Virus record (IMG/VR): IMGVR_UViG_3300027607_000132
Span: 1-28,208 of that record
DNA: 28,208 nt
DNA from: a virus
Reading direction: 5' to 3' (one strand)
Shown: piece by piece, positions 3,195 to 21,792 of the stretch
Layout: the number at the start of each line of letters is the position of its first letter
How positions within the stretch are numbered: position 1 is the first letter of the stretch
Made by a program: the position numbers and the translations under genes
Notes under the pieces: model-generated
Databases searched by the model: none
Told to the model about the DNA's origin: nothing
What the model saw: the letters and a program-made list of their open reading frames with translations, nothing else

Positions 3195-3971
3195 ATGCAA
3201 TACAGACAGGACAAGGTCGGCGTGTTCGTCGACGTCGAATCAACAATCGCACGGACAGGCGGCTACGGCATGCGCTACGACGTCCTGAGGGACTTCGCCG
3301 CGCGAGACGTGGTCGGCGCGCCGATTCTGCTCAACGCATACGTTGCCGCTCCGGACCCGGACGAAGCGGCCCCGGCACGCCTGACGAACGCTCGCAACTT
3401 CCAGGCGGCGCTACGAGACTTCGGGTATCGGGTCGTCGAAGCCGCTGATCCGGACACGTGGCCGGCCGACGAACTCTATGCCGAGGTACGGCGGCGGTCG
3501 GAACGGTTGGACACCGTCTTGATCGCCACGAGCGATGTCGGAGCGCAAGACGTGGTTCAGGACCTGGTTCAACGGGGTCACCGCGTCGAACTGGTGGCCT
3601 TCAACGAAGTCGAGCCGGCGCTGTCGAACCGGGTCGATCTCTTCGTCTCCGGCCACTTGATCGCGGATCTGCTGCCGGCTCGCGGCGGAAAGGGCCAGTG
3701 GGGAGCCGAGGACTCGCGCGTCCGCGGCGTCTGCTACAGCTTCTCGCACGATCGCGGATTCGGTTTCATCCGCTACATGGCGGAACTGGGCGACCTGGCA
3801 AGAATCGACACGCGCGAGGAGGGCTCGCCATACAGGAGCGCGTTCTGCCACGAAAGCGAGCTGCCCGCCGGCATCTCGGCGGATGATCTACCTACGCGCG
3901 AGCACATCTTCGAGTTCACGCTGGCCGAATCGGATCGAGGCCTTCAGGCGCGCGATATCGTCGTTGTATGA
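3195..3971 (+). CDS. NYN (LabA/PIN-like) nuclease fused to a cold-shock domain
   Basis: Two-domain protein, 258 residues. Residues 5-160 resemble a NYN/LabA-type PIN-fold RNase: an N-terminal strand with acidic residues (VGVFVDVEST; Asp13, Glu15), then DTVLIATSDVGAQDVVQ with Asp114, then RGHRVELVAF. Residues 175-258 resemble a cold-shock/OB fold: RGFGFIRY at 187-194 matches RNP1, AFCHESEL at 216-223 stands in for RNP2, and ESDRGLQARDIVVV matches the usual final strand. NYN proteins are RNA-processing nucleases and cold-shock domains bind single-stranded RNA or DNA, so a guided RNA nuclease is the natural reading. AGGAGG at 3178-3183 sets the start. The canonical central NYN aspartate motif is weak, so activity needs testing. 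The terminase small subunit overlaps its stop by four bases. Confidence 0.75.
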   Translation: MQYRQDKVGVFVDVESTIARTGGYGMRYDVLRDFAARDVVGAPILLNAYVAAPDPDEAAPARLTNARNFQAALRDFGYRVVEAADPDTWPADELYAEVRRRSERLDTVLIATSDVGAQDVVQDLVQRGHRVELVAFNEVEPALSNRVDLFVSGHLIADLLPARGGKGQWGAEDSRVRGVCYSFSHDRGFGFIRYMAELGDLARIDTREEGSPYRSAFCHESELPAGISADDLPTREHIFEFTLAESDRGLQARDIVVV

Positions 3972-4396
3972 GCGAAGCGGGCGGGTCGAGTATTCCGCGG
4001 CCGCCCTCTTGGCTTCATCGCTACGCGAAGGCCGAATGGAAGCGCATCGTTCCGGAGCTGATCAATCGCGGCCGCTACAACGAGTTCAGCGTTCAGCTCG
4101 TGGCGGCCTACTGCCAGGCGTTTGCCCGCTGGCGGGAAAGCGAGGAAGCCCTTGCGAAGTGGCAGAAAGCGGATCCGACGAAAAAGGGGGAGCCCCCACG
4201 GGTCGATCGACACGCCCTCAACGACATGCGGCAATTGGCCAAGGAACTCGGCCTCGGCCATGCGTCGCTAGCCAGGATCCGCAAGACCGAGAAGACGACC
4301 GGCGCAGGCGGGGCCCCACAGGACGCTCCGAAGGACAAGCTCAGGGAAATGCGCGACCGGCTCGGCGTACACCCAGGAGGCAAAAAGCGTGACTGA
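3968..4396 (+). CDS. terS: Terminase small subunit (P27 family)
   Basis: Small subunit of the DNA packaging motor, which recognises viral DNA and hands it to the large subunit. The pattern is that of the P27-type family: a Pro-rich start (RPPSWLHRYAKAEWKRIVPEL), a helix with VAAYCQAFARW, a linker with a Pro/Arg motif (EPPRVDRHALNDMRQLAKELGL), and a basic C-terminal tail. Length (142 residues) is normal. The ATG overlaps the stop of the NYN gene (ATGA). Unusually, the large subunit starts almost 5 kb further on, after a block of accessory genes on both strands, rather than directly downstream. Confidence 0.85.
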   Translation: MSEAGGSSIPRPPSWLHRYAKAEWKRIVPELINRGRYNEFSVQLVAAYCQAFARWRESEEALAKWQKADPTKKGEPPRVDRHALNDMRQLAKELGLGHASLARIRKTEKTTGAGGAPQDAPKDKLREMRDRLGVHPGGKKRD

Positions 4397-4453: not shown

Positions 4454-5155
4454 TCAACCGTTCTTCTTCCGTCGCCGCATCCGCGACACGAAAGCCGCTC
4501 CCAGCCCGAGACCAAACAGCCCCAACGTCGAGGGCTCCGGTACCGGCTCGGTCTCCGTCACGGAAAACCCGCCGATCGGCTTCCTGAACGGCGTCGTATC
4601 CGTCGCCTCGTCGTCGTAGGTAAAGCTGATGATGGTCGGGTTGAGCTCGCCGAAACGGGGCCCGAGCCGGACCTGCAACCAGCCCCAGATGAAGTCTCCG
4701 TCGTTCACCCCGTTGACGCGGAAATGGCCGGGCACCCAGTTGTCGTCGGAGTTGAGTACAGCTCCGTCGTTGGGTGCCGAGCGATCGAAGAAAGTCCAGA
4801 CGAAGCCCGTGATCACACCTGTAGTCGACACGTTCGATCGAACCGCCGGAAACAGCGTGCCGGTCGCGAGAACGAGGTCGCCTGAGGAGCTGAAGGTGTT
4901 GGTTCGATATCGAATCGAACTCAGCAACACATCGTCGATATTCGTACTGTCGAAATGATTCTCCAGCGTGACCGTTCCGACGCCGCCGTCGCCGCCGACG
5001 GTCACCAGCGCCGCATCGCTCGCCTGCGGAACCAGCGCCGCGGCAAGCACCCCGGTCAGCGTGGCGGCTGAAGGCCGCAAGGAAGGTCGCAATGAAGACG
5101 ACAACGAGTAGCTCCGCATGGAGCAGCTTGGATCGGTGTCTTGGTTTTGGTGCAT
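4454..5155 (-). CDS. PEP-CTERM surface-sorted protein 1
   Basis: Exported protein ending in a PEP-CTERM sorting signal: PVPEPSTLGLFG, a hydrophobic segment, then RMRRRKKNG at the very end. Such proteins are cut by exosortase/EpsH-type enzymes and sorted to the envelope or extracellular matrix of Gram-negative bacteria. The N-terminus has a signal peptide ending near PQASDAA. The start may be 5155 or, more naturally, the internal ATG at 5119 (MRSYSLSSS); neither has a visible Shine-Dalgarno sequence. The middle (about 150 residues) is beta-rich, with WVPGHFRVNG and FIWGWLQVRLG, and resembles generic secreted PEP-CTERM proteins without a domain I can name. It is convergent with the terminase small subunit. 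No exosortase gene is present, so the host must supply it. Confidence 0.85.
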   Translation of the reverse strand: MHQNQDTDPSCSMRSYSLSSSLRPSLRPSAATLTGVLAAALVPQASDAALVTVGGDGGVGTVTLENHFDSTNIDDVLLSSIRYRTNTFSSSGDLVLATGTLFPAVRSNVSTTGVITGFVWTFFDRSAPNDGAVLNSDDNWVPGHFRVNGVNDGDFIWGWLQVRLGPRFGELNPTIISFTYDDEATDTTPFRKPIGGFSVTETEPVPEPSTLGLFGLGLGAAFVSRMRRRKKNG

Positions 5156-5236
5156 GGGTTTTGTCGATTTCTTCTGTGCCGGCGAATGGTGGTTGAGAAT
5201 ACGACCACGGGCCCGAGCCTTGGGCGGACGCGGACG

Positions 5237-5962
5237 TCAGTCGGAGCGGCGGCGGACGCCGATCAGGGCGGCCACGCCGAGGACCATCAGCGACAAGGAC
5301 CCGGGCTCGGGGACCTCGGAAGAGACCGGGCCGGTGTCGAAGGCGACTTCGGATAGGCCATAGGTGAATAGCCGGTTCCGCCTATGGTCTATCACCCGGC
5401 CGCCGCCGGTCGCCGCAGTCAGGACCCGGATCCGCAGGTAGCGGGCGTCCGTGTCGAGCAGGTCAAAGACCTGCGCTCCGGTCGTGTACGGAAGTTCTTG
5501 GCCCCGCGGACCGCCATCGTGGACCGCAGTAAACGAACCTACGAGCATCGCGTCGAGGAAGTCGACGCTGTTCGCCGTATAGACCTCAAAATCGAGGATG
5601 GGTATATATCCGATCATCGGGGCGTTCCAGAAGGCCAATTGGCGAATTTGAAAGGGAGCCCCGAGGTCGAAGTCGATGGGAACGCTCCCGTTGAAGGACC
5701 AACCGTTGAAGTATTCGTTGGAAGGCGCGTAGGCCTCATGCGTCGGCGACTGAGCGATGTAGGCATCAAAGTCGGTTGCGCCATCGATGTAGCCGACGGA
5801 TAGGCCCGACTGATCGATCAATCCGCCTAATGATCCGGACGCCCTGTTCGGGGCCCTCACGACGTCGACGGCGGACCGGATGACGCCCGCCGAGGCGAGG
5901 TTGGGAAGGAAGCCGGCGACCAAGACGGCGAAGACGGCTAGAAGCCTGTGGCTGTGACTCAT
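5237..5962 (-). CDS. PEP-CTERM surface-sorted protein 2 with discoidin-like domain
   Basis: Second exosortase substrate, 241 residues. It has a signal peptide (HRLLAVFAVLVAGFLPNLASA), a central region resembling an F5/8 type C (discoidin-like) carbohydrate-binding fold (PIDFDLGAPFQIRQLAFWN, FEVYTANSVDF, ARYLRIRVLTA), and a C-terminal signal EVPEPGSLSLMVLGVAAL followed by RRRSD. It may bind polysaccharide at the cell surface. It lies upstream of the other PEP-CTERM gene on the same strand (81-bp gap to the longest start), so the two could share a transcript. The only Shine-Dalgarno-like element is a weak AAAAAG. A 42-bp inverted repeat at 5352-5393 lies inside the coding region near the C-terminal end of the domain. 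Domain call is moderate; the sorting signal is clear. Confidence 0.85.
   Translation of the reverse strand: MSHSHRLLAVFAVLVAGFLPNLASAGVIRSAVDVVRAPNRASGSLGGLIDQSGLSVGYIDGATDFDAYIAQSPTHEAYAPSNEYFNGWSFNGSVPIDFDLGAPFQIRQLAFWNAPMIGYIPILDFEVYTANSVDFLDAMLVGSFTAVHDGGPRGQELPYTTGAQVFDLLDTDARYLRIRVLTAATGGGRVIDHRRNRLFTYGLSEVAFDTGPVSSEVPEPGSLSLMVLGVAALIGVRRRSD
5352..5393. repeat. Inverted repeat inside PEP-CTERM gene 2
   Basis: Arms GATAGGCCATAGG (5352-5364) and CCTATGGTCTATC (5381-5393) pair over 13 bp with one mismatch, around a 16-nt loop. It encodes the minus-strand segment around VIDHRRNRLFTYGLSEV, which is more basic and less beta-like than its flanks. This could be a small palindromic element inserted in frame, or an mRNA hairpin. 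Confidence 0.55.
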
Positions 5963-6262
5963 GGTCTTTTTCTACGCCCGCAGTAAGGGACTTTCATAGG
6001 GGCATTTGACAGCGACATAGCAGTATTAGGCGGCATTAGGGGGCATGACGCCCATTCCGGCTCAAGAAAAGGGTCATTTTGCGGCCTCGGCCCCCGCTCG
6101 CGTACCAGTAGGCGGGCGGCCCAGCTCGGCCGAACCGATGGATGAGGCACGCGTTGCTGGGACAAGGTGCGCGGGCCAAGCTGGATAACGTTACTCTGCG
6201 TAAGGCGAAAACTGAGGACGGCGGACGTTCAGATACGCCGGGCCCAGGTTCGGTCCGGTAAG
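5963..6262. other. Upstream region of PEP-CTERM gene 2 with short direct repeats
   Basis: About 300 bases between the minus-strand PEP-CTERM gene and the HNH gene. It contains ATTAGGCGGC (6025-6034) directly followed by ATTAGGGGGC (6035-6044), and a related ATAGGGGCAT at 5996-6005, spaced like operator or activator sites 33-82 bp upstream of the PEP-CTERM start. A TTGACA at 6006-6011 on the plus strand has no good -10 partner. The segment 6167-6262 is open in the HNH frame but I treat it as upstream sequence. Confidence 0.4.
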
Positions 6263-6730
6263 GTGCCCAAGCGATTCTGCCCTGTCCCGCTCTGCCGAGT
6301 TCTTCTAGAGCCCGGCGCCGGCTGTCCGCCCGGCTGCGCTCGTTTACGCGGGGAACACCCGCGGCTGGAAATAGATAAGCGCTCGGCTTCCAAGCGAGGG
6401 TACGATCGCACGTGGCGTCGCTTTCGGCTGGGCTACCTCAACCAGAACCCCCTCTGTCTCACCTGTAGGGAGGGGGGGCGTATCGTTCCGGCCTACGAGA
6501 TTCATCATGTGGTGCCGCTTCATGACGGCGGCCCTCGCTTCGAGGATTGGAACCTCATGGGCCTCTGCTCGAGTTGCCACGCCCGCATCACGGCCGAACT
6601 CGAAGGGAAGGGAGCGTATCGACGCTTCCGTCGTCGCTTCCCCGATGATCAGCAAGCGCTGGCCCGTGAGCTTCGATCGTTCTGCTTCCGAATCATTCTT
6701 GGAACTCGCTCTCAAGCTGCCGTTGAGTAG
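6263..6730 (+). CDS. HNH endonuclease
   Basis: HNH homing/packaging-type endonuclease. The core is a zinc-stapled beta-beta-alpha fold: CLTC, then YEIHHVVPLHDGG (the first H of HNH), FEDWNLMGLC (N), CSSCHARIT (second zinc pair and last H). The preceding ASKRGYDRTWRRFRLGYLNQNPLC is the conserved lead-in of phage HNH proteins. The GTG at 6263 (VPKRFCPVPLC) is preferred because family members usually start with a short Cys-containing segment like this; a GTG at 6167 would add 32 residues. In many cos-type phages an HNH protein encoded beside the terminase genes works with the terminase in cutting cos sites, and its place between the small and large terminase genes fits that. A free-standing homing nuclease is the alternative. 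Confidence 0.85.
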   Translation: MPKRFCPVPLCRVLLEPGAGCPPGCARLRGEHPRLEIDKRSASKRGYDRTWRRFRLGYLNQNPLCLTCREGGRIVPAYEIHHVVPLHDGGPRFEDWNLMGLCSSCHARITAELEGKGAYRRFRRRFPDDQQALARELRSFCFRIILGTRSQAAVE

Positions 6731-7263: not shown

Positions 7264-7944
7264 TTGGACAGCGCGGAGACGCGGGAGCTAGCCTCGAAAG
7301 CAAGGGCGGAATTGAACCATGCTCGGCCGATCCCGGTCTACGACGACGGCGCCGTCAAGATCTTCCGCGGCCGACACGAGGAGATTCTCCGCCACCTCGA
7401 CCTCCCCTCGATCGACCTGGTCCTGACCGACCCGCCGTACGGCATCAACCACCGAACCGACTACAGCTCGCGCGGCGGCCGCAAGTTCCCCAAAGTCTTT
7501 GGCGACAACCGGCCGTTCGAACCGGCCGTCTGGCTGATGTTCCCGAAGGTCGTCCTGTTCGGCGCCAACCACTACGCGAACCGGCTTCCGCCGGCGCCGT
7601 CTTGGTGGATCTGGGACAAGCGCTGCGGGACGACGACGAATTGCCAGTCCGACTGCGAGCTGGCCTGGACGAACATCGGCGGCACCGCTCGGGTCTTCCG
7701 CCACGTCTGGAACGGCTTCCACCGGGACAGCGAGCGCGGCGTCAAGCGCGTTCACCCGACTCAGAAGCCCGTCGCGCTGATGCGCTGGTGCCTCGAGCGG
7801 TCGAACCCGACGGGAGTCGTCCTCGATCCGTTCATGGGCTCCGGATCGACGCTGGTCGCCGCCAAGCAGCTCGGCGTGCCGGCGATCGGCATCGAGACGA
7901 ACGCGACGTACTGTACGGCGGCCGCGAAGCGGCTGCGAGGCTGA
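7264..7944 (+). CDS. DNA N4/N6 methyltransferase (beta-class layout)
   Basis: Site-specific DNA methyltransferase that transfers a methyl group from S-adenosylmethionine to the exocyclic amine of cytosine or adenine. The catalytic motif IV is LTDPPYGI (about 54-61), near the N-terminus, and the AdoMet-binding motif I is DPFMGSGST (188-196), near the C-terminus, preceded by HPTQKP (164-169); this order is that of beta-class enzymes. At 226 residues it is compact and has no obvious target recognition domain beyond the 60-150 region. The start may be TTG 7264 or TTG 7312; neither has a strong ribosome binding site. No cognate restriction nuclease is beside it, so it is most likely an orphan phage methylase for evading host restriction or marking DNA. 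Confidence 0.88.
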   Translation: MDSAETRELASKARAELNHARPIPVYDDGAVKIFRGRHEEILRHLDLPSIDLVLTDPPYGINHRTDYSSRGGRKFPKVFGDNRPFEPAVWLMFPKVVLFGANHYANRLPPAPSWWIWDKRCGTTTNCQSDCELAWTNIGGTARVFRHVWNGFHRDSERGVKRVHPTQKPVALMRWCLERSNPTGVVLDPFMGSGSTLVAAKQLGVPAIGIETNATYCTAAAKRLRG

Positions 7945-7986: not shown

Positions 7987-8490
7987 GTGCCTAACCAAGC
8001 GACCTTGCACCAGCGGCTGGAGCTCCAAGAGGACGTCTCGGACGCGAACGAGCTCACGCGCTCGCAGTTGATTCACCAGGCGAGCGACGCACTGCTGAAG
8101 CTGGGGTCCAGCTCGACGCCGGCGGTCTCGCAGGTCTACGCCCAGCAGCTGACGCTTCCGGCCGGACCTCTCACTGTCGACCTCGCAGCGCTCGTCGACG
8201 GCGCCGGTCAAGCGCTCGACCTCACCGGCCTGAAGGCTCAGGTGATCAAGATCGTCAACGCGCCGAAGAGCGGGGGCGCTAACACGGCGGGGCTGAACGT
8301 CGTTCCGGCCGCGGTGAACGGCTACCAATGGGCGGGCGATGCCGACAGCGAGGCTACGCTCGCCCCTGGAGGTGTCTTGACGATCTACAACCCGGAGGGC
8401 AATCCCGACGTCGGCGCCTCGGCGAAGGACATCACGTTCTCGAGCGCGGACACCGACGCGGTCTTCCAGCTGATGATCGCCGCGGGCTAG
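7987..8490 (+). CDS. Hypothetical protein, possibly a capsid or tail decoration protein
   Basis: A 167-residue protein starting with GTG after a clear AAGGGAG (7973-7979). Residues 1-40 are helical and acidic; residues 50-167 are rich in beta strands and turns (LPAGPLTVDLAAL, LTGLKAQVIKIVN, APGGVLTIYNP, ITFSSADTDAVFQLMIAAG). This style is common in small phage virion proteins (decoration or tail-associated), but I cannot assign a family. Its stop codon overlaps, in antiparallel, the stop of the minus-strand gene that follows, and both lie in one 7-bp hairpin. Confidence 0.6.
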   Translation: MPNQATLHQRLELQEDVSDANELTRSQLIHQASDALLKLGSSSTPAVSQVYAQQLTLPAGPLTVDLAALVDGAGQALDLTGLKAQVIKIVNAPKSGGANTAGLNVVPAAVNGYQWAGDADSEATLAPGGVLTIYNPEGNPDVGASAKDITFSSADTDAVFQLMIAAG

Positions 8491-8498
8491 TCCCGCGG
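8480..8498. terminator. Hairpin over two overlapping convergent stop codons
   Basis: CCGCGGG (8480-8486) pairs with CCCGCGG (8492-8498) around the 5-base loop that contains both stops (plus TAG 8488-8490; minus TAG read from 8489 to 8487). It could act on both strands, but there is no T-run on either side, so efficient intrinsic termination is uncertain. Confidence 0.4.
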
Positions 8499-9113
8499 TT
8501 CAACCTTGAGATCTTCCCGTGCAACTTCGATTAGCTTCTCAAAGGCTGACCTGAACTCGTCGTGCGCAGCATGGAGCTCGTCGTGCAAAGGGGGCGAATC
8601 TTCGAATTTCCGGGGCATCTCCCTCAGCTTGAGGTAACTGTCCCAGTCGTCGTACTTCGTAAAGAGCATCGCCCGAGCGCGAGCAGCGGATCCGTCCTCC
8701 AGGCTCTTCTTGTATCTGTCGGATCCGTCGAAGGTCGTTCTGGCTTGCTTGTGAAGGAAAACGTCGATCATCAGGTGCTGCCAGCTCAAGTACATGTCGA
8801 GCAGTCCACCGTAGGCGAGGACCTTTTGGTCCCAGACTCTACCGTGCTCGATTTTGACCCTCTCGGTCTCTTCAGCAATGCTGCGGACATCCTCGATCAG
8901 CGCTCTATTCTTGTCCTTTTCCGAATAGTAGGCAGGGCCGTCTTCCAGATCGGCCTCGTTGGCCGCCCTCTTGGAGATGTGCGCGGCCCACCAGGGCTTT
9001 ACGATGTGGTACAGGCCCGCCATGATCACTAGGGCCCAAACGCTCTCCAAAGGAAAATTAATTGTTATCACGCTGAAGAGGGTACGCTTGCCAAGTGCAT
9101 TTTTGTGTCCCAA
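8487..9113 (-). CDS. Membrane-anchored protein with long helical cytoplasmic region
   Basis: Unrecognised 208-residue protein. Residues about 12-38 form one hydrophobic segment (LFSVITINFPLESVWALVIMAGLYHIV), followed by Lys, two Trp and basic residues, so a single N-terminal membrane anchor with the remainder probably cytoplasmic. The rest is charged and mostly helical (EDVRSIAEETERVKIEHGRV; DELHAAHDEFRSAFEKLIEV). Bases 8880-9110 are visibly more AT-rich than the structural genes. The start is uncertain: TTG at 9113 keeps the anchor; there is no clear ribosome binding site. A palindromic repeat (9103-9127) overlaps the start. Its orientation, composition and anchor fit an accessory gene such as a superinfection exclusion or signalling protein, which is a guess. 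Confidence 0.65.
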   Translation of the reverse strand: MGHKNALGKRTLFSVITINFPLESVWALVIMAGLYHIVKPWWAAHISKRAANEADLEDGPAYYSEKDKNRALIEDVRSIAEETERVKIEHGRVWDQKVLAYGGLLDMYLSWQHLMIDVFLHKQARTTFDGSDRYKKSLEDGSAARARAMLFTKYDDWDSYLKLREMPRKFEDSPPLHDELHAAHDEFRSAFEKLIEVAREDLKVEPRD

Positions 9114-9326: not shown

Positions 9327-10916
9327 GTGCCGTACGACGCGCAGGCCGGCGAAGCGATCGTACAGGCCTTCGCGGAGTTGGCGGTCTACATCAAGGGCCC
9401 TCTGGCCGGCCAACCGGCCGAGTTGAGGGCGTTTCAAGCCGAGTGGTTCCGGCAGATCTACGGAACGCTCGACGAAGAGGGCAAGCGGCAGTTTCGGACG
9501 GCGTTCATCTTGCAGCCAAAGAAAGTCGGCAAGACCTACCTCGCGGCGTTCATCGCTTTGATGATGATCTCGCTGTACGGCCAGTACGGCGGCGAGGTCT
9601 ACTCGCTCGCAAACTCCCGCGACCAGGCGGCCGAGGTTTTCAAGGCGGCGCGGGACATGGTCGCCATGTCGCCCGGTCTCCAGGCGCTCGGCTTCTGGTT
9701 CGACGACGACGTCCGTCCGTCGACGAAGACGATCACCTACCGGCCGCTCAACGCCGTCTATCGCGCGCTGGCGGCCGAGCAGGCGGCGCTCCACGGCAAA
9801 GGCCCCTACGGCCTGATCGTCGACGAGCTCCACGCGATGCGCGACCGCGAGGCGATCGACGCGGTCCGCGAGGGCATGGGGATCTGGCCGGATCCGCTGA
9901 CGCTCTACATCACGAATCACGGCACGCTGGGCGAGTCGGAGCCCTTCTGGGAAGAGTACGACTACGCCAAACGCGTTCTCGAGGAGCCGGACTTCGATCG
10001 CGAGTACTACGCGGCGATCAACGAGGCGCCCGACCGCCTGACCGACGACGAGCTGCTTGAGGAAGGGCCGCACTGGTACGAGATCCACCCCGGTCTGGGC
10101 GATACCGTCTCGGTCGACTTCATGCGGCGGGCGTGCCGCGAGGCGAAGGAGAAGCCATCGCAGCGCGCCTTCGTGCTCCAGATGCACTTGGGGCGCCCGA
10201 CGCAACCGGTCGAGGCGGCGATCGACATGGCGCACTGGCGCGCGTGCGCTTCGGCCGAGGTGACCGAGAAGGCGTTTGAGGGCCGGCGCTGCGCGATCGG
10301 ACTCGATCTGTCGAGCCGCTGGGACCTGACCTCGGCGACGCTCGTGTTTCCTGAGGACGACGGCGGCCGCACGTGGCTGAGCTGGTCCTGGATCCCGAGA
10401 GCGAACGCGACGCGCATCGAGGAGCTGACGAAGCGGCCGATGCGCGCCTGGCTCGACGATCCGAAGGTCCCGCTGCTCTCGACTCAAGGCAACGAGATCC
10501 GCTTCGACGAGATCGAGTCGTTTCTAGTCGAGCTGTCCGCGCGATACGACGTCGCGGCGGTCGTCTACGACCCCAAGTTCGCGACGCAGCTCGCCCAGAA
10601 CCTCGATCAGGCCGGACTCGTGATGATCGAGTTCCTGCCGAGCTTCAAGACCTACACCGAGCCGGTCCAGAACGTCGAGAGCCAGATCAACGGCCATCGG
10701 TTGCGCCACTCGGGCGACAAGCTGCTCGACTACGCCGCTTCGAGCCTCGGCATCAAGAACGATCAGGACTGGGGCTCGAAGCCGATCAAGATCGACCGCC
10801 GACGCTCGTCGAAGCGGATCGACCCGATCGTCGCCGGGATCATGGCCGAAGCCTACTGGGTCAAGGCCGAGCCGCCGGTCGCGCCGCTGTCGGCGAGGGA
10901 CTTCGCGGTCGGATAG
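9327..10916 (+). CDS. terL: Terminase large subunit
   Basis: ATP-driven DNA packaging motor and nuclease, 529 residues, the normal length for HK97-like large terminases. The ATPase domain has a variant Walker A (QPKKVGKT, 63-70) and Walker B (LIVDELHAM, about 163-171), with a coupling-type segment TNHGTLGE. The RNase H-like nuclease domain shows acidic residues at Asp327 (IGLDLSSRWD), Asp415 (VVYDPKFA) and Asp468 (KLLDYAA). The GTG at 9327 is the most likely start; only a weak AGG-type site precedes it. It heads the virion operon: the portal gene begins 3 bases after its stop. Its separation from the small subunit by about 4.9 kb is unusual. Confidence 0.95.
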   Translation: MPYDAQAGEAIVQAFAELAVYIKGPLAGQPAELRAFQAEWFRQIYGTLDEEGKRQFRTAFILQPKKVGKTYLAAFIALMMISLYGQYGGEVYSLANSRDQAAEVFKAARDMVAMSPGLQALGFWFDDDVRPSTKTITYRPLNAVYRALAAEQAALHGKGPYGLIVDELHAMRDREAIDAVREGMGIWPDPLTLYITNHGTLGESEPFWEEYDYAKRVLEEPDFDREYYAAINEAPDRLTDDELLEEGPHWYEIHPGLGDTVSVDFMRRACREAKEKPSQRAFVLQMHLGRPTQPVEAAIDMAHWRACASAEVTEKAFEGRRCAIGLDLSSRWDLTSATLVFPEDDGGRTWLSWSWIPRANATRIEELTKRPMRAWLDDPKVPLLSTQGNEIRFDEIESFLVELSARYDVAAVVYDPKFATQLAQNLDQAGLVMIEFLPSFKTYTEPVQNVESQINGHRLRHSGDKLLDYAASSLGIKNDQDWGSKPIKIDRRRSSKRIDPIVAGIMAEAYWVKAEPPVAPLSARDFAVG

Positions 10917-10918
10917 CG

Positions 10919-12313
10919 ATGCTGGACGGCCTTCGCAAATCGGTTTCCCGCGCCCTGGTCGGTCTTGCAACCCGCTTCTCGATCTCCGCGCTCGACGATC
11001 TGCTCGACGGCGCCTTTGCGGGCTTCAAGACCTGGACGGGCATGCACGTCAGCGCGCGTACGGCGCTGAAGCAGCCGGAGATCCGTCAGGCGATCCTCAA
11101 CCTCGCCTACGACATGGCGCGGATGCCGCTGCCCGTGCTCGAGCGCGCCGAAGACGGCTCGCACATCCGTCGGCGCGAGCATCCGCTCTGGCGCCTGCTC
11201 AACAAGCAAGCGAACCCGGAGATGACCGCGCTCGAGCTTCGCCGGCAGCAGTGGACGCAGTTCCTGCTTGAGGGCGAGTGCTACACGCACATCGAGAAGG
11301 ACCTCGCCGGGCGTCCGGTCGCTCTGTGGCCGCTCGAGGCCGACCGGATGCAGATCGACGGCGACATCCGGCCGGGCGTCGTGCGGCGTTTCCTCTACAC
11401 CCACCGCGACGGTACGCGCCAGGCGTTCCTGCGCGACGAACTGTTCGTAATGAGCGACCTATCGCTGAGCGGTCAGCGCGGCGAGAGCCGTTTCGCCGAG
11501 GCCTCGGAGTCGGTCGGTCTATCGCTGGCCACGATGCGCTACGCGGCGCTGTTCTTCGCCCGCAACGGCCGTCCGACGATGTTCCTGACCCATCCGACCG
11601 GCTTCAAGACCGACGACGAGGAAGAGGAAGCGATCAAGCTCTGGAACCAACGCTACTCCGGACCGAACGCGCACGGCATCGGCTTCTTGAAGAAGGGTCT
11701 GGAGCCGGTCGACCTCAAGACGCAAGACAACAACGCCGCGCAGATGGTCGAGACGCGGCGTTTCAACAAAGAGCAGAACGCGATGCTGGCGCGGATGCCG
11801 CCGCACCTGCTCCAAGACCTCAGCCGCGGCACCTTCTCGAACATCTCGCGCCAGGGCGTCGAGTACGTGACCTACGCCCTGCTCTCGCTGCTGACGCTCT
11901 TCGAGCAGGCCTCGGCTTGTCAGCTCTTCGACCCGCTCGAACAGGAACGCGGTCTGGAAGTGAAACACAACGTCAAAGCGCTGATGCGCGGCGACGTCGA
12001 TAAACAGGCCAGCTTCTACACCAAGATGATCCAGTGGCGGCTGATGACCGTCAACGAGGTCCGCGAGCTCGAGGACCTCGACCGAGTCGAGGGCGGCGAC
12101 GTCTTCCTTCAGCCGGCCAACATGATCGCCGTCGACGTCGACGGCGAGATCCTCCCCGGCCAACCCGCCCTCGGCGCCCAAAGCTCTCCCAGCGAGACGG
12201 GCGAGCTCGGCGAACGCATCCTCGGCCGCCTCAACGAGGCCGAATACCTCAGCTCGTCGCAGAAGGACGAAGTCCTCGAGCTGCTCGAAGAGCACCTGGG
12301 ACTAGCCGCGTAG
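10919..12313 (+). CDS. Portal protein (HK97 type)
   Basis: Forms the dodecameric ring at one capsid vertex through which DNA is packaged and to which the tail connects. The 464-residue product has the usual features: an N-terminal segment ending in GMHVSARTALKQPEIRQAILNLAYDMARMPLPV (quoted here in part by position 41-75), HPLWRLLNKQANPEMTALE, then an acidic clip/stem region with DLKTQDNNAAQMVETRRFN and ARMPPHLLQDLS, typical of the family. ATG 10919 is the start, two bases past the large terminase stop; the long upstream open extension is a shadow. The Glu-rich C-terminus (NEAEYLSSSQKDEVLELLEEH) is also common. Confidence 0.9.
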   Translation: MLDGLRKSVSRALVGLATRFSISALDDLLDGAFAGFKTWTGMHVSARTALKQPEIRQAILNLAYDMARMPLPVLERAEDGSHIRRREHPLWRLLNKQANPEMTALELRRQQWTQFLLEGECYTHIEKDLAGRPVALWPLEADRMQIDGDIRPGVVRRFLYTHRDGTRQAFLRDELFVMSDLSLSGQRGESRFAEASESVGLSLATMRYAALFFARNGRPTMFLTHPTGFKTDDEEEEAIKLWNQRYSGPNAHGIGFLKKGLEPVDLKTQDNNAAQMVETRRFNKEQNAMLARMPPHLLQDLSRGTFSNISRQGVEYVTYALLSLLTLFEQASACQLFDPLEQERGLEVKHNVKALMRGDVDKQASFYTKMIQWRLMTVNEVRELEDLDRVEGGDVFLQPANMIAVDVDGEILPGQPALGAQSSPSETGELGERILGRLNEAEYLSSSQKDEVLELLEEHLGLAA

Positions 12314-12321
12314 GAGCCGTC

Positions 12322-13215
12322 ATGAAGAAAGACCCTCAATCGTTCGCCCAACGCCGCGCCGCAACCTACAACCGCGTCGAGTGCCGCAAGTTCTCGGGCG
12401 AGCAGTTCATCAGCCGTAGAGCAGAGGCCCCGGAAGCGCTCGAAGAGCGCGCTTCGGCCGGCGCGATCACTCAGGAGCGCTCCGGCCGCGTCTTGTTGAC
12501 GGGTTTCTCGGCCGTCTTCGACGTCTGGTACACGATCCGCGACTTTTGGGGGCCGTTCCAGGAGCGCGTCGACTCGGGAGCGTTCGAGGAGACGCTGCGC
12601 TCGGACCGCGACGTCATCGGCGCCTTCAACCACTCGCCGGACTTCGTGCTCGGTCGCCACGGCGGCGGAACCATGCGCAGCTTCACCGACGAGATCGGTC
12701 TGCGCTACGAGATCCTCGCCAACCCGGCCAGTCCGGCCGCGCAGACGGCGATCGCCGCCGTCGAGGACCGCAACGCCGGCGGAAGCTCGATCGCGTTCGA
12801 GATCGTCCGCCAGAGCTGGGAGTTCAACGACGACACCGGCGAGGAGTTCCGCACGATCCTCGAGACGCGGCTGTTCGAGCACGGACCGGTCGCCATGCCG
12901 GCGAGCCCGACGACGACGGCCGAGATCGGCGACGACCAGCGCCAAGAGTTCGAGTTCGAGGACGCCGACGTGCGCAGCGTGGCGATCGCGTTGCGCCGCG
13001 GCGCGCCTCTGACCGATGCGGACGTCCGCGCGATCAACGCTCGCCGCGACGACGTCCTCGAAGCCCTGTTCGAGCTGGGGCGAAGCGCCTCGGCCCGCGA
13101 CCGCGACGGCCGCTCGGCCGAGCGCACGGCCCCCAACGATGAACCCTCGACGCTGGAGGCTTTCCAGCTCTCGAGGATGCGCGCAAAGACGGCCGTGCTT
13201 CGGTCGGAGCTGTAG
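12322..13215 (+). CDS. Prohead maturation protease (HK97/U35 type)
   Basis: Serine protease that cleaves the capsid protein delta domain during maturation. The protease part spans about 55-190: LLTGFSAVFDVWYTI opens the fold, DVIGAFNHSPDFVLGR carries the probable catalytic His104, and AGGSSIAFE carries the probable Ser (155/156). The N-terminal 50 residues and the C-terminal 110 charged residues (rich in Arg, Asp and Ser) are extra to the core and may be a scaffold-like part. AGGAG at 12312-12316 overlaps the portal stop and fixes the ATG at 12322. It is followed directly by the capsid gene, as expected. Confidence 0.9.
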   Translation: MKKDPQSFAQRRAATYNRVECRKFSGEQFISRRAEAPEALEERASAGAITQERSGRVLLTGFSAVFDVWYTIRDFWGPFQERVDSGAFEETLRSDRDVIGAFNHSPDFVLGRHGGGTMRSFTDEIGLRYEILANPASPAAQTAIAAVEDRNAGGSSIAFEIVRQSWEFNDDTGEEFRTILETRLFEHGPVAMPASPTTTAEIGDDQRQEFEFEDADVRSVAIALRRGAPLTDADVRAINARRDDVLEALFELGRSASARDRDGRSAERTAPNDEPSTLEAFQLSRMRAKTAVLRSEL

Positions 13216-13228
13216 GAGAGGAGAGCAC

Positions 13229-14650
13229 ATGAAAGGACTTGCCAAACGCAAGGCGGAACTCCGCGAGAAGCTGGAAGCCCTCGAAAAGGAAGGCCTCCAG
13301 ATCACCGAGGACGTCCGCGACGGAAAGAAGAAGCTCGAGGGCCCCGTGAAGGCTCGAATGGAGCAGATCACCTTGGAGCAAGACCAGCTCCGGACGGAAC
13401 TCGAAGAGATCCGCCAGGAAGAAGACGCCGAGCGCCTGGTCACGCGCTTCGCCGACAACCGCCGCTTCTTCGCCGAGTCGCAAGAGCCTGCGCCGCCGTC
13501 GGAAACGCAGGACTCCGAGCGCGGCAACGACATCGACGCATTGGCCGTGCGCGCCGGTGACTGGCGCCCGAACCTGCGCGCTCTGCGCAACGCCCATCCG
13601 CTGTTCCGCGACTGGGTGACCAAGGGCGAGTTCTTCCGGTCGGTGTACGAGCACGCCACCGGCAAGGGCACGGACAAGCGCCTACAGGCGATGCTCGAGC
13701 ACCGCGCGCCGACCGGCTTCGGCGAAGCGGTCGACAACGACGGCGGCTTCCTGGTCCCGGTCCAGTTCGTCGCCGAGCTGCTGCAACGCGTCTACACGCT
13801 CGGTCAGGTGCTTTCGCGCTGCCGCCTGATCCCGATGTCGACGAACTCGATCGTCTTCCCGGCGGTCGACGAGACGAGTCGCGCCAACGGCTCGCGGCAC
13901 GGCGGGATTCAGGCCTTCTGGGAAGAAGAAGGCGGTACGATCACGCCGACCCGCGGCAAGTTCTCGAAGGTCGAACTGCGGGCCAACCTGCTGACGGCCG
14001 CCGCCCACGTCACCGACCAACTGCTCGAAGACGTCCCGGCGCTCGGCGCCTGGCTCTCGATGATCTTCACCGAGGAGATGACCTTCAAGCTCGAGGACGC
14101 GATCTGGGAAGGCACCGGCGCCGGCCAGCCTCTCGGCATCCAGAACAGCGACGCGATGATTACCGTCGCGAAAGAAGGCAGCCAGGCGGCCGACTCGATC
14201 GTCCCCGAGAACATCGTCAACATGCGCTCGCGGCTGTTCGCGCGGTCGCGCGCCAACTCGGTCTGGTTCCACAACCAGGACATCGAGCCCGAACTGCACA
14301 CCCTGGTCCTCGAAGGCGCGAGCAGCTCGATCCCGATGTATCTCCCGGCGAACGGTCTGTCGGGCGCCCAGTTCGACACCCTCTACGGCCGCCCGCTGGT
14401 CCCGATCGAGTACGCCTCGACGCTCGGCGACGCCGGCGACCTCACCCTCGCCGACATGGCCCAGTACTTCCTCGGGCAGCGCGGCGGCATCCAGACCGCG
14501 ACCTCGATCCACGTGAAGTTCCTTGAGAACGAACAGACCTTCCGGTTCCGCATGCGCGCCGACGGTCAACCGTGGTGGAAGTCGGTCCTGACGCCCTTTA
14601 AGGGCACCGCGACCCAGAGCCCGTTCGTGCGCCTGGCGGCGCGCGCCTAG
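13229..14650 (+). CDS. Major capsid protein (HK97 fold)
   Basis: Shell protein, 473 residues. Residues 1-70 form a heptad-rich charged coiled coil (LAKRKAELREKLEALEKEG...), the delta domain that acts as built-in scaffold and is removed by the protease. The rest is the HK97 fold: DNDGGFLVPVQFVAELLQR opens the mature protein region, then VTDQLLEDVPALGAWLSMIF (spine/P-domain area), WEGTGAGQPLGIQN, and the C-terminal FLENEQTFRFRMRADGQPWW strands, all typical. A purine-rich GGAGAGGAGAG site precedes ATG 13229. Codon use is strongly GC-ending, as expected for a highly expressed gene in this genome. Confidence 0.95.
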   Translation: MKGLAKRKAELREKLEALEKEGLQITEDVRDGKKKLEGPVKARMEQITLEQDQLRTELEEIRQEEDAERLVTRFADNRRFFAESQEPAPPSETQDSERGNDIDALAVRAGDWRPNLRALRNAHPLFRDWVTKGEFFRSVYEHATGKGTDKRLQAMLEHRAPTGFGEAVDNDGGFLVPVQFVAELLQRVYTLGQVLSRCRLIPMSTNSIVFPAVDETSRANGSRHGGIQAFWEEEGGTITPTRGKFSKVELRANLLTAAAHVTDQLLEDVPALGAWLSMIFTEEMTFKLEDAIWEGTGAGQPLGIQNSDAMITVAKEGSQAADSIVPENIVNMRSRLFARSRANSVWFHNQDIEPELHTLVLEGASSSIPMYLPANGLSGAQFDTLYGRPLVPIEYASTLGDAGDLTLADMAQYFLGQRGGIQTATSIHVKFLENEQTFRFRMRADGQPWWKSVLTPFKGTATQSPFVRLAARA

Positions 14651-14667
14651 CGGCGAGACGACAACCC

Positions 14668-14693
14668 GGAGGGGCTATTCAAATGGCCCCTCC
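14668..14693 (+). terminator. Hairpin after the capsid gene
   Basis: GGAGGGGC (14668-14675) pairs perfectly with GCCCCTCC (14686-14693) around a 10-base loop. No T-run follows, so it may protect or process the capsid mRNA rather than terminate transcription. Confidence 0.4.
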
Positions 14694-14722
14694 CACCTGA
14701 TTTCAAAAGGAGCTGAAAGGAA

Positions 14723-15193
14723 ATGAACACTCTCGTCGAAAACATCGCCGTCGTCTCGGGACTCGCTCCGGACGTCGACCGCTACAACACGAACCCGACC
14801 GGCGACTACGTCTCGCTGGCCGGCGGCCGAGAGCTCACGATCCTCGTCGTCGAAGGCACGGGCACCACCGGCCGCGCGACGTTGACCGTCAACGCCGCCT
14901 CGGACAACTCGGGCACGGGCGCGGAGGCGATTCCGTACGAGTACCGGACCCAGAACCTCGACGGCACGTCGATCTCCGACTGGATCGCCGCGACCGCGTC
15001 CGGTTTCCAGACGGCCGCCGGCGGCGATCAGGTGATCGCGATCCGGGTCCTCGCCGAGCGGCTGCCGGAAGGCAAACCGTACGTTTCTCTCACCGCGACC
15101 GAGTCGGTCGACGCTCCCGTCGACGCCGCGGTCGTGATGCTGCTGTCGAACCTGCGCTACCCGCAAGAGAAGCCCACGGCGCCGACGTCCTAA
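14723..15193 (+). CDS. Capsid-associated (decoration-like) protein
   Basis: A 156-residue protein directly after the capsid gene, with AAAGGAG-type sites (AAAAGGAGCTGAAAGGAA) before ATG 14723. The sequence is beta-rich: NIAVVSGLAPDVDRYN, DYVSLAGGRELTILVVEG, RATLTVNAASDN, QVIAIRVLAERL, AAVVMLLSNLRYPQE. Small virion proteins with this layout, including the final L..LRYPQ, recur at this locus in HK97-like prophages and are usually annotated as hypothetical or head decoration proteins. The position after the capsid gene and the strong ribosome binding site support a structural role; the precise function is inferred. Confidence 0.65.
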   Translation: MNTLVENIAVVSGLAPDVDRYNTNPTGDYVSLAGGRELTILVVEGTGTTGRATLTVNAASDNSGTGAEAIPYEYRTQNLDGTSISDWIAATASGFQTAAGGDQVIAIRVLAERLPEGKPYVSLTATESVDAPVDAAVVMLLSNLRYPQEKPTAPTS

Positions 15194-18846: not shown

Positions 18847-21792
18847 ATGGCGAAGCGCAACCTACTCGTCGTCATCAGCGGCGACAACCGCGACCTGCTG
18901 AAGAAGCTTCGGCAGGTCCGCAACGTCGTGCGCGAAACCGGCGACACGCTCACCAGCCTCGGCCGAACCCTAACGCTCGGCGTCACGGCGGGGCTGCTGG
19001 CCGCCGGCGCGGCCGCGGTCAAGATCCAGGGCGACTTCGAGCAGGCCGGCATCGCCTTCGAGACGATGCTCGGTTCGGCCGACGCCGCCAAGGCGCTTCT
19101 CGCCGACCTGACCGACTTCGCGAAGAACACCCCGTTCGAGCTGCTCGGCATCAACAAGGCGGCCCAGCGGCTGCTCGCCATGGGCGTCGCCGCCAAGGAC
19201 GTGATTCCGTTCCTGACCGCCGTCGGAGACGCGGCCGCGGCGACGGGCACCGGCTCGGTCGGCTTCGATCGCATCACGCTTGCCCTCACGCAGATGCGCG
19301 CCAAGGCGAAGGTCTCGGCCGAAGAGATGACCCGCCAGCTCGGCGAGATCCTGCCGGCGTGGGAGATCTTGGCCGAGCGCATCGGCGTCTCCGTCCCGGA
19401 GGCGATGAAGCTCGCCGAGAAGGGCATGCTCGACGGCGTCGCCGCCGTCGACGCGCTGCTCTCCGGATTCACTGACCGCTTCGGCGGCGCGATGCGCAAG
19501 CAGACCGAGACGATCGTCGGCCAGCTCGAGAAGATCAAGGACCAGGCGCTCATCATCCTCCGAGATCTCGGGAAGCTGCTTGAGCCCGTCATCAAGCCCG
19601 CGCTCGCGATCATCGGCCAGGCCCTCGACAAGCTCGGCGAGCTGATCGTCGAGTTTCAGAACGCGGATCCGGCGATTCAGAAGCTCGTCGCAGGCATCGT
19701 CACGTTCGCCGCGGTGATCGGCCCGATCTTGCTCGCCCTCGGCGGCATTGCGGCCGCCCTCGCCGCGATGGCCGCCCTCGCTCCCGAAGTCGTCGCCGGC
19801 GTCGTCGCTCTGGCGGTCGCCTTGGCGGCCGGCACAGCCGGCGTTGTGGGGTTCTTCGACCAGGTCGTCGAGCTCGGGCGCTGGCTCGCCGATGTCTGGC
19901 CGGTCGTTTGGGCGGCGGCGGTCCTGGTCTTCGAGTTCTTCAAGCAGAAGCTCATCGACCTAACGAACTCCGACGCCTTCTCGGGACTGATCGACACGCT
20001 CGGCATCATCGCCAACGTCTTCGCGTCGATGTTCGGCGCGATGGCGGACACGGTCGCCGAGTTCGTCAACGGCGCGATCGCGATGTTCATTAAGTGGGCC
20101 ACCGCGCTCCAGAAGATGCCCGGGGCCGTCGGGGACGCGGCTCGCAAGTTCAAAGTGGCCCTCGCCGACTTCCGCTTCGATCAGTTCACCCAACGAACAC
20201 TCGAGCCGATCCGCAAGGCGCGCGAGGAGATGGAAAAGACGGGCAAGACGGCCGAAACCTCAGGGCCGAAGATCGGCAAGCTGAGCGACTTCCTGATCGG
20301 CGCCGGCGACGGCGCGAAGAAGGCGAAGGACGAAGGGTTCTCGCCGCTGTTGCTGACGCTCACCCAGATCGCCGACCAGAAGTTCGTCCCGCTGATGAAA
20401 GCCGCCGAAGCCGTCAAGGCGAACGGCGTCCAGGCTCTGGCCGCCTTCGCGGCGATGCCGCCGCCGATCACCGCGGCCGCCAATCAGTTCGGCAAGGTCC
20501 GTGACCTCCTGGCCGACGCCGCCACCCAACAGGCTCAGAAGCTGAAGGAAAACGTCGCCGGCACGTTCGAAGCGGCCAAGCTGCTCGGGATCGAGCTTCA
20601 GACGAGCGTCGTCTCGAACCTCGAAGCCGCCAAGGTCGCGTTCGGCGAGATCGAGGCGGCTGCGCGCCAGGGCCTCGCCACCGAGCGCGACGTCAACATC
20701 GCCCGGATCGCGCTGCTCGAGCAGTGGAAGGAAGCGGCGATCGCCGGTACCGCGGAATGGTCGACCGACCTCGAGACGGAACTCAACGACCGCCTCGCGC
20801 AGACCGAGGTCTTCGCGAATGAGTCAGCCTCGCTCTACGACGATCTCGCCCAGCGGATCAACGGCATCCTCGACAACCTCTCGGGCTCGCTCACCGACGT
20901 GATCCTCGGCGCCCAGACGCTCGGCCAGGCCTTCGCGCAGACCGGCAAGGCGATCGCGCAGACGATTCTCGACGTGATCATCCAGGGCGCACTCAACGCG
21001 CTGAAGGAAGCGATCCTCGAAAACGACGAAGCCGTCCAGGGACTGATCAAGGCGTTCAAGAAGTTCATCGGCCTGTTCACGGGCTCCGGCAGCAAGGCCG
21101 GCAAAGCCGCCGGCGGCGCGGGCGGAGGCGGCGGAGGCGGAGGCGGCACGCCCCCGCTGGGAACCTTCGGCGGCGTGCTTTCCGCCCTCGACAGCCTGGT
21201 TTCGATCGTCACGAGCCTCATGAACATGTTCGCGATCCGGCGAATCGAGAAGGACGTCGGCCGGATCGAGGTCACGACCCGCGGCATGCTCAACGAGGCC
21301 CTCAACTTCCGCGCTGATCAGTGGCAGCAGCACACCGAGGTCCTCGCCAAGTGGGACATGGCGATTCAGACGCTCTTCGACATCAAAGCCAAGCTCGAGG
21401 AGTTCGTGACGGGCCCGCCAGGCGCGCCGCCCGCCCAAGGCGGCGGCTCGATCAACCCGGCGCCGATCGTCGACGCCGTCAACCGCGTCGGGGACATCTT
21501 GAACGCCTACCGGCTCGAGTTCGCGGCCTTCATGAACGAGCTCGCGCGGCCTCAGCTCGATCACCTGGTCGAGCAGACCAGCCTTCAGGCCGCGATGCTC
21601 ATGCAGCTCAGCAAGCTCGTCAGCATCTTCGAGCTCATCACCCAGCAAAGCCCGACCGGCCAGGCCGCCGGCGGGACGTTTAGCGTCGTGGTCCAAGGAT
21701 CGACGGCCGACCCCGAGGAAACCGTCCGCGCGCTCGAGAAGTTCTTCGAGCGCCGCGGACTCCAGCGCTCCGCGGTCAGCGGGGTCATCTAA
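18847..21792 (+). CDS. Tape measure protein
   Basis: Sets tail length and is ejected with the DNA. At 981 residues, the usual rule of about 0.15 nm per residue predicts a tail near 147 nm. Residues 1-220 match the N-terminal tape measure domain (FEQAGIAFETMLGSADAAKA, LTDFAKNTPFELLG, LALTQMRAKAKVSAEEMTRQ, MKLAEKGML). Residues about 275-340 form hydrophobic, membrane-capable helices (FAAVIGPILLALGGIAAALA and VVALAVALAAGTAGVVGFF). Long Ala/Lys/Glu helices follow, then a Gly-rich linker at about 757-772 and a C-terminal part with LYDDLAQRINGILDNLSGSL and QTGKAIAQTILDVIIQGALN. No peptidase or lysozyme motif is seen. Start ATG 18847 has only a weak ribosome binding site, perhaps depending on coupling to the chaperone. 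Confidence 0.92.
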   Translation: MAKRNLLVVISGDNRDLLKKLRQVRNVVRETGDTLTSLGRTLTLGVTAGLLAAGAAAVKIQGDFEQAGIAFETMLGSADAAKALLADLTDFAKNTPFELLGINKAAQRLLAMGVAAKDVIPFLTAVGDAAAATGTGSVGFDRITLALTQMRAKAKVSAEEMTRQLGEILPAWEILAERIGVSVPEAMKLAEKGMLDGVAAVDALLSGFTDRFGGAMRKQTETIVGQLEKIKDQALIILRDLGKLLEPVIKPALAIIGQALDKLGELIVEFQNADPAIQKLVAGIVTFAAVIGPILLALGGIAAALAAMAALAPEVVAGVVALAVALAAGTAGVVGFFDQVVELGRWLADVWPVVWAAAVLVFEFFKQKLIDLTNSDAFSGLIDTLGIIANVFASMFGAMADTVAEFVNGAIAMFIKWATALQKMPGAVGDAARKFKVALADFRFDQFTQRTLEPIRKAREEMEKTGKTAETSGPKIGKLSDFLIGAGDGAKKAKDEGFSPLLLTLTQIADQKFVPLMKAAEAVKANGVQALAAFAAMPPPITAAANQFGKVRDLLADAATQQAQKLKENVAGTFEAAKLLGIELQTSVVSNLEAAKVAFGEIEAAARQGLATERDVNIARIALLEQWKEAAIAGTAEWSTDLETELNDRLAQTEVFANESASLYDDLAQRINGILDNLSGSLTDVILGAQTLGQAFAQTGKAIAQTILDVIIQGALNALKEAILENDEAVQGLIKAFKKFIGLFTGSGSKAGKAAGGAGGGGGGGGGTPPLGTFGGVLSALDSLVSIVTSLMNMFAIRRIEKDVGRIEVTTRGMLNEALNFRADQWQQHTEVLAKWDMAIQTLFDIKAKLEEFVTGPPGAPPAQGGGSINPAPIVDAVNRVGDILNAYRLEFAAFMNELARPQLDHLVEQTSLQAAMLMQLSKLVSIFELITQQSPTGQAAGGTFSVVVQGSTADPEETVRALEKFFERRGLQRSAVSGVI

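Follow-up and report, generated by a model that had tools for sequence, protein, structure and literature searches.

A linear viral record of 28,208 bp from IMG/VR (IMGVR_UViG_3300027607_000132; its whole length was analysed and is called the window below), whose plus-strand structural genes form a module of siphovirus-like type, encodes two adjacent PEP-CTERM proteins, PEP_A and PEP_B, on the minus strand of its packaging region. The best explanation, in which we have slightly better than even confidence, is that these genes form a two-gene moron cassette whose products would be exported by Sec, handled by the exosortase of the host and put to use in altering the host envelope or matrix. The overall interpretation of an earlier note on this DNA, that a phage supplies surface proteins to the sorting machinery of its host, is partly supported by our analysis. 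The features on which the argument rests are the following:

3968-4396, plus strand: P27-family terminase small subunit, TerS (PF05119, 56.8 bits; TIGR01558, 47 bits over cut-off)
4454-5155, minus strand: PEP_A, PEP-CTERM protein of 233 aa (PF07589, TIGR02595)
5237-5962, minus strand: PEP_B, PEP-CTERM protein of 241 aa (PF07589, TIGR02595)
6167-6730, plus strand: HNH endonuclease (PF01844, 34.7 bits; phrog_144, 1.9e-22)
7264-7944, plus strand: DNA N6/N4 methylase, in the TerS-TerL interval (PF01555, 82.9 bits)
8487-9113, minus strand: third minus-strand gene of the TerS-TerL interval (no family match)
9327-10916, plus strand: terminase large subunit, TerL (PF20441, 99.6 bits; PF03354, 72.5 bits)
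10913-12313, plus strand: portal protein (PF04860, 247 bits)
13016-14650, plus strand: HK97-type major capsid protein (PF05065, 129.7 bits)
18847-21792, plus strand: tape measure, in the structural module, where a head-tail connector is also present

The earlier note had placed two minus-strand PEP-CTERM genes at 4454-5962, inside a packaging region; both were confirmed, with TerS on the left and TerL on the right, each of phage type. Its description of the pair as lying between the terminase genes was correct and incomplete, as the 4.9 kb interval also holds the HNH and methylase genes, an unassigned plus-strand ORF and the third minus-strand gene. TerS and PEP_A are convergent and separated by 57 bp, while PEP_B and its right neighbour, the HNH gene, are divergent, so that the cassette occupies intergenic space between intact phage genes and does not represent host DNA from the edge of a provirus. 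PEP_B and PEP_A, both on the minus strand, are probably read as one transcript, since only 81 bp lie between them. Their orientation amid the plus-strand TerS and HNH/TerL genes is a placement often seen for moron-type accessory genes. In seven structurally related viral loci having both terminase genes, the matched parts are about 40 bp to 1.3 kb apart, which indicates that the interval of 4.9 kb is expanded here. No integrase or repressor was recognised among the searched ORFs of the 28 kb fragment.

Other genes of the window were noted in passing. The product of the third minus-strand gene is unrelated to the PEP-CTERM pair; it has a low GC content (0.55), one N-terminal hydrophobic segment and no match in Pfam, PHROG or NCBIfam, and the gene is possibly another moron. 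Positions 1676-2599 of the window encode a permuted papain-like protein (YaeF/YiiX, C92-type) whose PHROG match falls in the moron category (phrog_1128, 7e-19), and positions 3195-3971 encode a NYN-domain protein which overlaps the start of TerS and shows a weak cold-shock-like match near its C-terminal part.

Codon use of PEP_A and PEP_B was atypical (0.09 and 0.14, versus 0.37-0.53 for the structural genes), and other accessory genes likewise deviate. The atypical stretch spans 2.6-6.7 kb, takes in everything from TerS to HNH and includes TerS itself and, to a lesser extent, the NYN gene; the cassette is therefore not singled out by its codon use. Such a pattern fits a mosaic module and leaves room for a chimera, in which either the minus-strand segment at 4.45-5.96 kb or the whole left part of the record would be host or other-phage DNA joined during assembly. 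The difference in codon use from the structural genes, the opposite strand of the two genes and the metagenomic nature of the record all agree with such an event, which we nevertheless consider improbable: the genes bordering the segment, TerS 57 bp before its start and HNH beyond its end, are intact and phage-type, so that a chimera would need two clean joins between genes, and independent contigs, described below, show PEP-CTERM genes embedded in packaging modules. No convincing repeats were found flanking the cassette as a mark of insertion. No sigma-70-type promoter was recognised upstream of PEP_B. For sigma-54, by a criterion typical of Proteobacteria only, matches were found only with 3 mismatches and less often than in shuffles, and none lay on the coding strand just before PEP_B.

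Assignment of both genes to the PEP-CTERM class relies on several concordant results. A scan with PEP-CTERM HMMs, which the earlier note had proposed, placed both proteins above the curated cut-offs of Pfam (PF07589: PEP_A 30.5 bits, PEP_B 24.5 bits, cut-off 20.7) and of NCBIfam (TIGR02595: PEP_A 28.7 bits, PEP_B 20.9 bits, cut-off 16). TIGR02595 matched exactly these two places in the whole record and nothing in 14 control genomes. Each protein ends in a PEP motif followed by a hydrophobic helix and a basic cluster, the tail being VPEPSTLGLFGLGLGAAF..RRRKK in PEP_A and EVPEPGSLSLMVLGVAALIGVRRR in PEP_B. When a tail rule (PEP, a hydrophobic stretch and basic residues at the ORF end) was applied to 80 viral loci of related structure with 6,432 ORFs, a single false tail was recovered, and two adjacent matches are thus not due to chance. 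Hydropathy windows revealed one N-terminal and one C-terminal hydrophobic segment in each protein, with none between. The N-terminus of PEP_B combines a strong hydrophobic segment with an ASA-G site, the alanine of which is invariant in its relatives. That of PEP_A is signal peptide-like, with a weaker hydrophobic core behind a long N-region and an uncertain start codon.

The body of PEP_B is supported, on a predicted model, as a discoidin/CBM32-like fold. The AlphaFold2 model, built from ten sequences, is of medium confidence (pLDDT 70) and forms a beta-sandwich that matched CBM32/discoidin domains (Foldseek E 3.8e-7, VIA Z 13.3), among them a bacterial sialidase carrying a galactose-binding module, of which 133 residues superpose at an rmsd of 2.6. 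The discoidin-like fold that the earlier note had attributed to one of the proteins is consequently borne out at the level of this model. Besides PF07589, PEP_B has no Pfam match at E 0.1, and it is accordingly discoidin-like in predicted fold without being filed as a Pfam member. Known CBM32 and F5/8 type C domains, such as those of the Micromonospora sialidase (1w8o) and the C. perfringens CBM32, resemble the predicted fold at a Z of about 13, but their identity to PEP_B is only about 9-18% and a likeness of fold does not show sugar binding.

Bacterial relatives of PEP_B share 26-36% identity with it, and most have a PEP-CTERM-like tail. They are scattered among Planctomycetota (Aeoliella, Rhodopirellula, Schlesneria), Alphaproteobacteria (Kordiimonas, Phenylobacterium, Roseovarius), Cyanobacteria and further groups; in Rhodopirellula, the related stretch forms one domain of a long protein, and a plasmid search gave two bacterial matches. 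Aeoliella, Gloeothece, Kordiimonas and other bacteria have discoidin-like PEP-CTERM proteins that belong to the same sequence family as PEP_B, with this identity extending over the protein, and that have the same type of tail. Their genes are chromosomal or plasmid-borne, whereas that of PEP_B is carried by a phage. For PEP_A, weak similarity (29-44%, E down to 2e-5) was found in 7 of the 199 genomes covered from the phylum to which Aeoliella belongs. The matching proteins are PEP-CTERM proteins, several of them matching mainly in the tail, and no match was found in plasmids. A fold of PEP_A from a single-sequence model was unusable (pLDDT 33).

In the proposal made for PEP-CTERM proteins (PMC1569441), the signal peptide directs export by Sec and the C-terminal helix then anchors the protein, after which a membrane exosortase recognises the PEP motif; the fate of the protein lies beyond the inner membrane, in the envelope or the exopolysaccharide. 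Passages of the literature on Zoogloea and Aquincola link PEP-CTERM proteins to floc formation. From this tag model and these floc links, we infer export, processing by a host exosortase and a location at the surface or in the matrix for PEP_A and PEP_B. PEP_B and then PEP_A would be read against the structural genes as one cargo, both products would leave the cytoplasm by Sec through their predicted signal peptides, and an exosortase of the host would handle the PEP tails and deliver the proteins to the cell surface or the surrounding matrix, where the discoidin/CBM32-like domain of PEP_B may bind a glycan. As for what the phage would gain, our guess is that the infected or lysogenic cell would present an altered surface, leading to aggregation or biofilm, or to a glycan receptor masked from other phages; the modelled fold of PEP_B fits either purpose.

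Alternatively, PEP_A and PEP_B could serve the virion or lysis, with the C-terminal helix as a mere inner-membrane anchor devoid of any exosortase role. No exosortase (PF09721) was matched in the 28 kb record, and discoidin-like domains occur in many viral proteins, including some virion proteins. However, the tails score as PEP-CTERM and not as any membrane helix, the putative signal peptide would send PEP_B out of the cytoplasm, where virions assemble, and such a tail occurs together with an exosortase on another phage contig (L211, see below); a virion or lysis role therefore appears very improbable to us.

The pair of PEP_A and PEP_B was not found in a second virus, either in INPHARED, where neither protein has a relative among 50,697 phage records, or in pattern scans of IMG/VR. 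In the latter, no close relative of PEP_A, PEP_B or TerL was confirmed by exact peptide patterns and none of PEP_B by two alignments, these scans relying on exact short stretches and being liable to miss distant relatives. Among 80 IMG/VR loci with related capsids, no convincing PEP-CTERM gene was detected, which argues that this capsid lineage did not inherit the trait from its ancestor. The best capsid relatives, at 36-39%, are in Schlesneria and in a Streptomyces phage and are not decisive for the host. Given this lack of viral relatives and these capsid relatives without PEP-CTERM genes, this lineage appears to have gained the cassette recently or as a rare event.

In a rival reading, host genes were captured by chance, in a transduction-like manner, and have not yet been lost; they would bring the phage no advantage and be expressed little or not at all. 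Their capture would agree with the empty viral scans, the atypical codon use, the scatter of PEP_B relatives over several bacterial groups and the failure to recognise a promoter. Still, both reading frames are intact, with no internal stops or frameshifts, and the PEP-CTERM class recurs in many unrelated viruses, one family of which is under purifying selection; we thus rate chance capture as unlikely, and a cassette acting on the host surface is the reading that we retain.

This recurrence emerged from a scan of IMG/VR for DNA encoding VPEPST-x-x-L, with both types of serine codon, followed by the tail-rule filter on the ORF end. At least about 50 other contigs with PEP-CTERM ORFs were recovered (57 listed, a few of them clearly spurious), and the TIGR02595 cut-off was exceeded in 19 of the 20 records tested. 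Some of these contigs are short or carry no hallmark gene and may be host DNA, and the argument uses those with phage hallmarks close by. A TerL match in PHROGs was obtained for 8 of the 19 records, strong in six (G268, G270, G271, G276, G278 and G280), at E 1e-7 in G272 and weak (0.004) in G273. In L226 (record G278, 10498-14860), one strand carries genes for TerL (phrog_2, 2e-24), a PEP-CTERM protein and an SU10-like portal (2e-100), the PEP-CTERM gene being exactly between TerL and portal. At L197, the PEP-CTERM gene adjoins genes for a portal (phrog_156, 5e-7) and a major head protein (phrog_9953, 1.5e-40) on the same strand, and at L259 it adjoins a portal gene (portal-like PF23899, 4e-4) in a contig with a weak TerL match. 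The earlier note had staked its reading on other viral genomes carrying such genes at this locus; this expectation failed for the exact pair and held for the PEP-CTERM class, with the TerL-PEP-portal order of L226 and the portal-PEP order of L259.

One phage-carried PEP-CTERM family was present in eight viral contigs (L150, L156, L157, L162, L172, L199, L257 and L259). It is nearest to the FxDxF family, below the cut-off of the latter, and has no counterpart in PHROGs. Its diverged pairs gave dN/dS values of 0.11-0.25, which indicates purifying selection and retention for function in this family, PEP_A and PEP_B themselves being outside the comparison. None of seven PEP-CTERM candidates tried had a match in PHROGs, and INPHARED held no relatives of the PEP-CTERM proteins of L226 and L259 or of the L211 exosortase. 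Adjoining pairs of PEP-CTERM genes, as in the window, were also seen at L120 (4378-6018) and L190 (2509-4832), in IMG/VR contigs of 65 kb and 228 kb, and PEP-CTERM genes occurred in jumbo-phage-sized contigs with TerL at L131 (369 kb, record G270) and L117 (245 kb, record G271).

At L211 (4738-7216), together with L265 (IMGVR_UViG_3300020061_000007, 61.7 kb), a PEP-CTERM gene lies beside an exosortase gene (PF09721, 4e-36). An integrase gene (phrog_1, 9e-33) also adjoins these two, and the locus is flanked by virion structural genes and a Sak4-like gene. The exosortase is compact, with about 170 aa from its likely start, and matches positions 106-253 of the 254-position model. It retains all three motifs of the family, C-x-G, N-x-x-R and H-x-x-x-G (a Cys-Arg-His set), as named by Haft et al. 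(PMC1569441). With enzyme and substrate on one phage-like contig, this locus stands out, in certain respects, more than the window does. We tentatively suggest, at somewhat less than an even chance, that phages have repeatedly recruited the exosortase pathway for conversion of the host surface, many carrying only substrates, in the packaging module or near it, and depending on the enzyme of the host, as in the window, and some, as at L211, a substrate with a compact exosortase and hence the means of dressing the host surface by themselves.

The open literature, a scope without preprints and most subscription journals, yielded no description of PEP-CTERM or exosortase genes in phages. The statement of the earlier note that no well-described phage system of this type is known to it thus agrees with the INPHARED records and open literature searched. 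Those phage-borne surface proteins that are known take a lipoprotein route, a membrane route or that of the Gram-positive sortase. The morons of phages that alter the cell surface, and superinfection exclusion proteins, are accessory genes with an effect on the host envelope, as is proposed for the cassette; those morons that have been described use lipoproteins, inner-membrane proteins or glycosyltransferases, and we know of no description of exosortase sorting among them. A phage-borne surface protein using a host sorting enzyme already exists for the Gram-positive sortase, in the form of SasX of staphylococci, an LPXTG surface protein and sortase substrate borne by a known prophage in a known host. 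PEP_A and PEP_B would resemble SasX as phage-carried surface proteins relying on a sorting enzyme of the host, but SasX belongs to the LPXTG/sortase system of Gram-positive bacteria and the present pair to PEP-CTERM/exosortase. Changing the host surface by means of PEP-CTERM cargo may be a recurring but undescribed strategy of viruses. In environmental bacteria, the exosortase pathway has a part in the making of biofilms and flocs, and if phages feed cargo into it, they could switch the aggregation of the host or its sensitivity to phages. Because a phage keeps only what pays, phage PEP-CTERM genes also give a handle on what PEP-CTERM proteins do. Among the closest known systems is the PEP-CTERM/EpsH exosortase system of bacteria (Haft 2006, PMC1569441), with which PEP_A and PEP_B share the C-terminal PEP motif with its helix and basic cluster, the scarcity of relatives beyond the tail and, putatively, the signal peptide. 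That system was described in bacterial genomes, mostly as single-gene operons and with the exosortase gene near exopolysaccharide loci, whereas the cassette of the window comprises two genes and lies within the packaging module of a phage.
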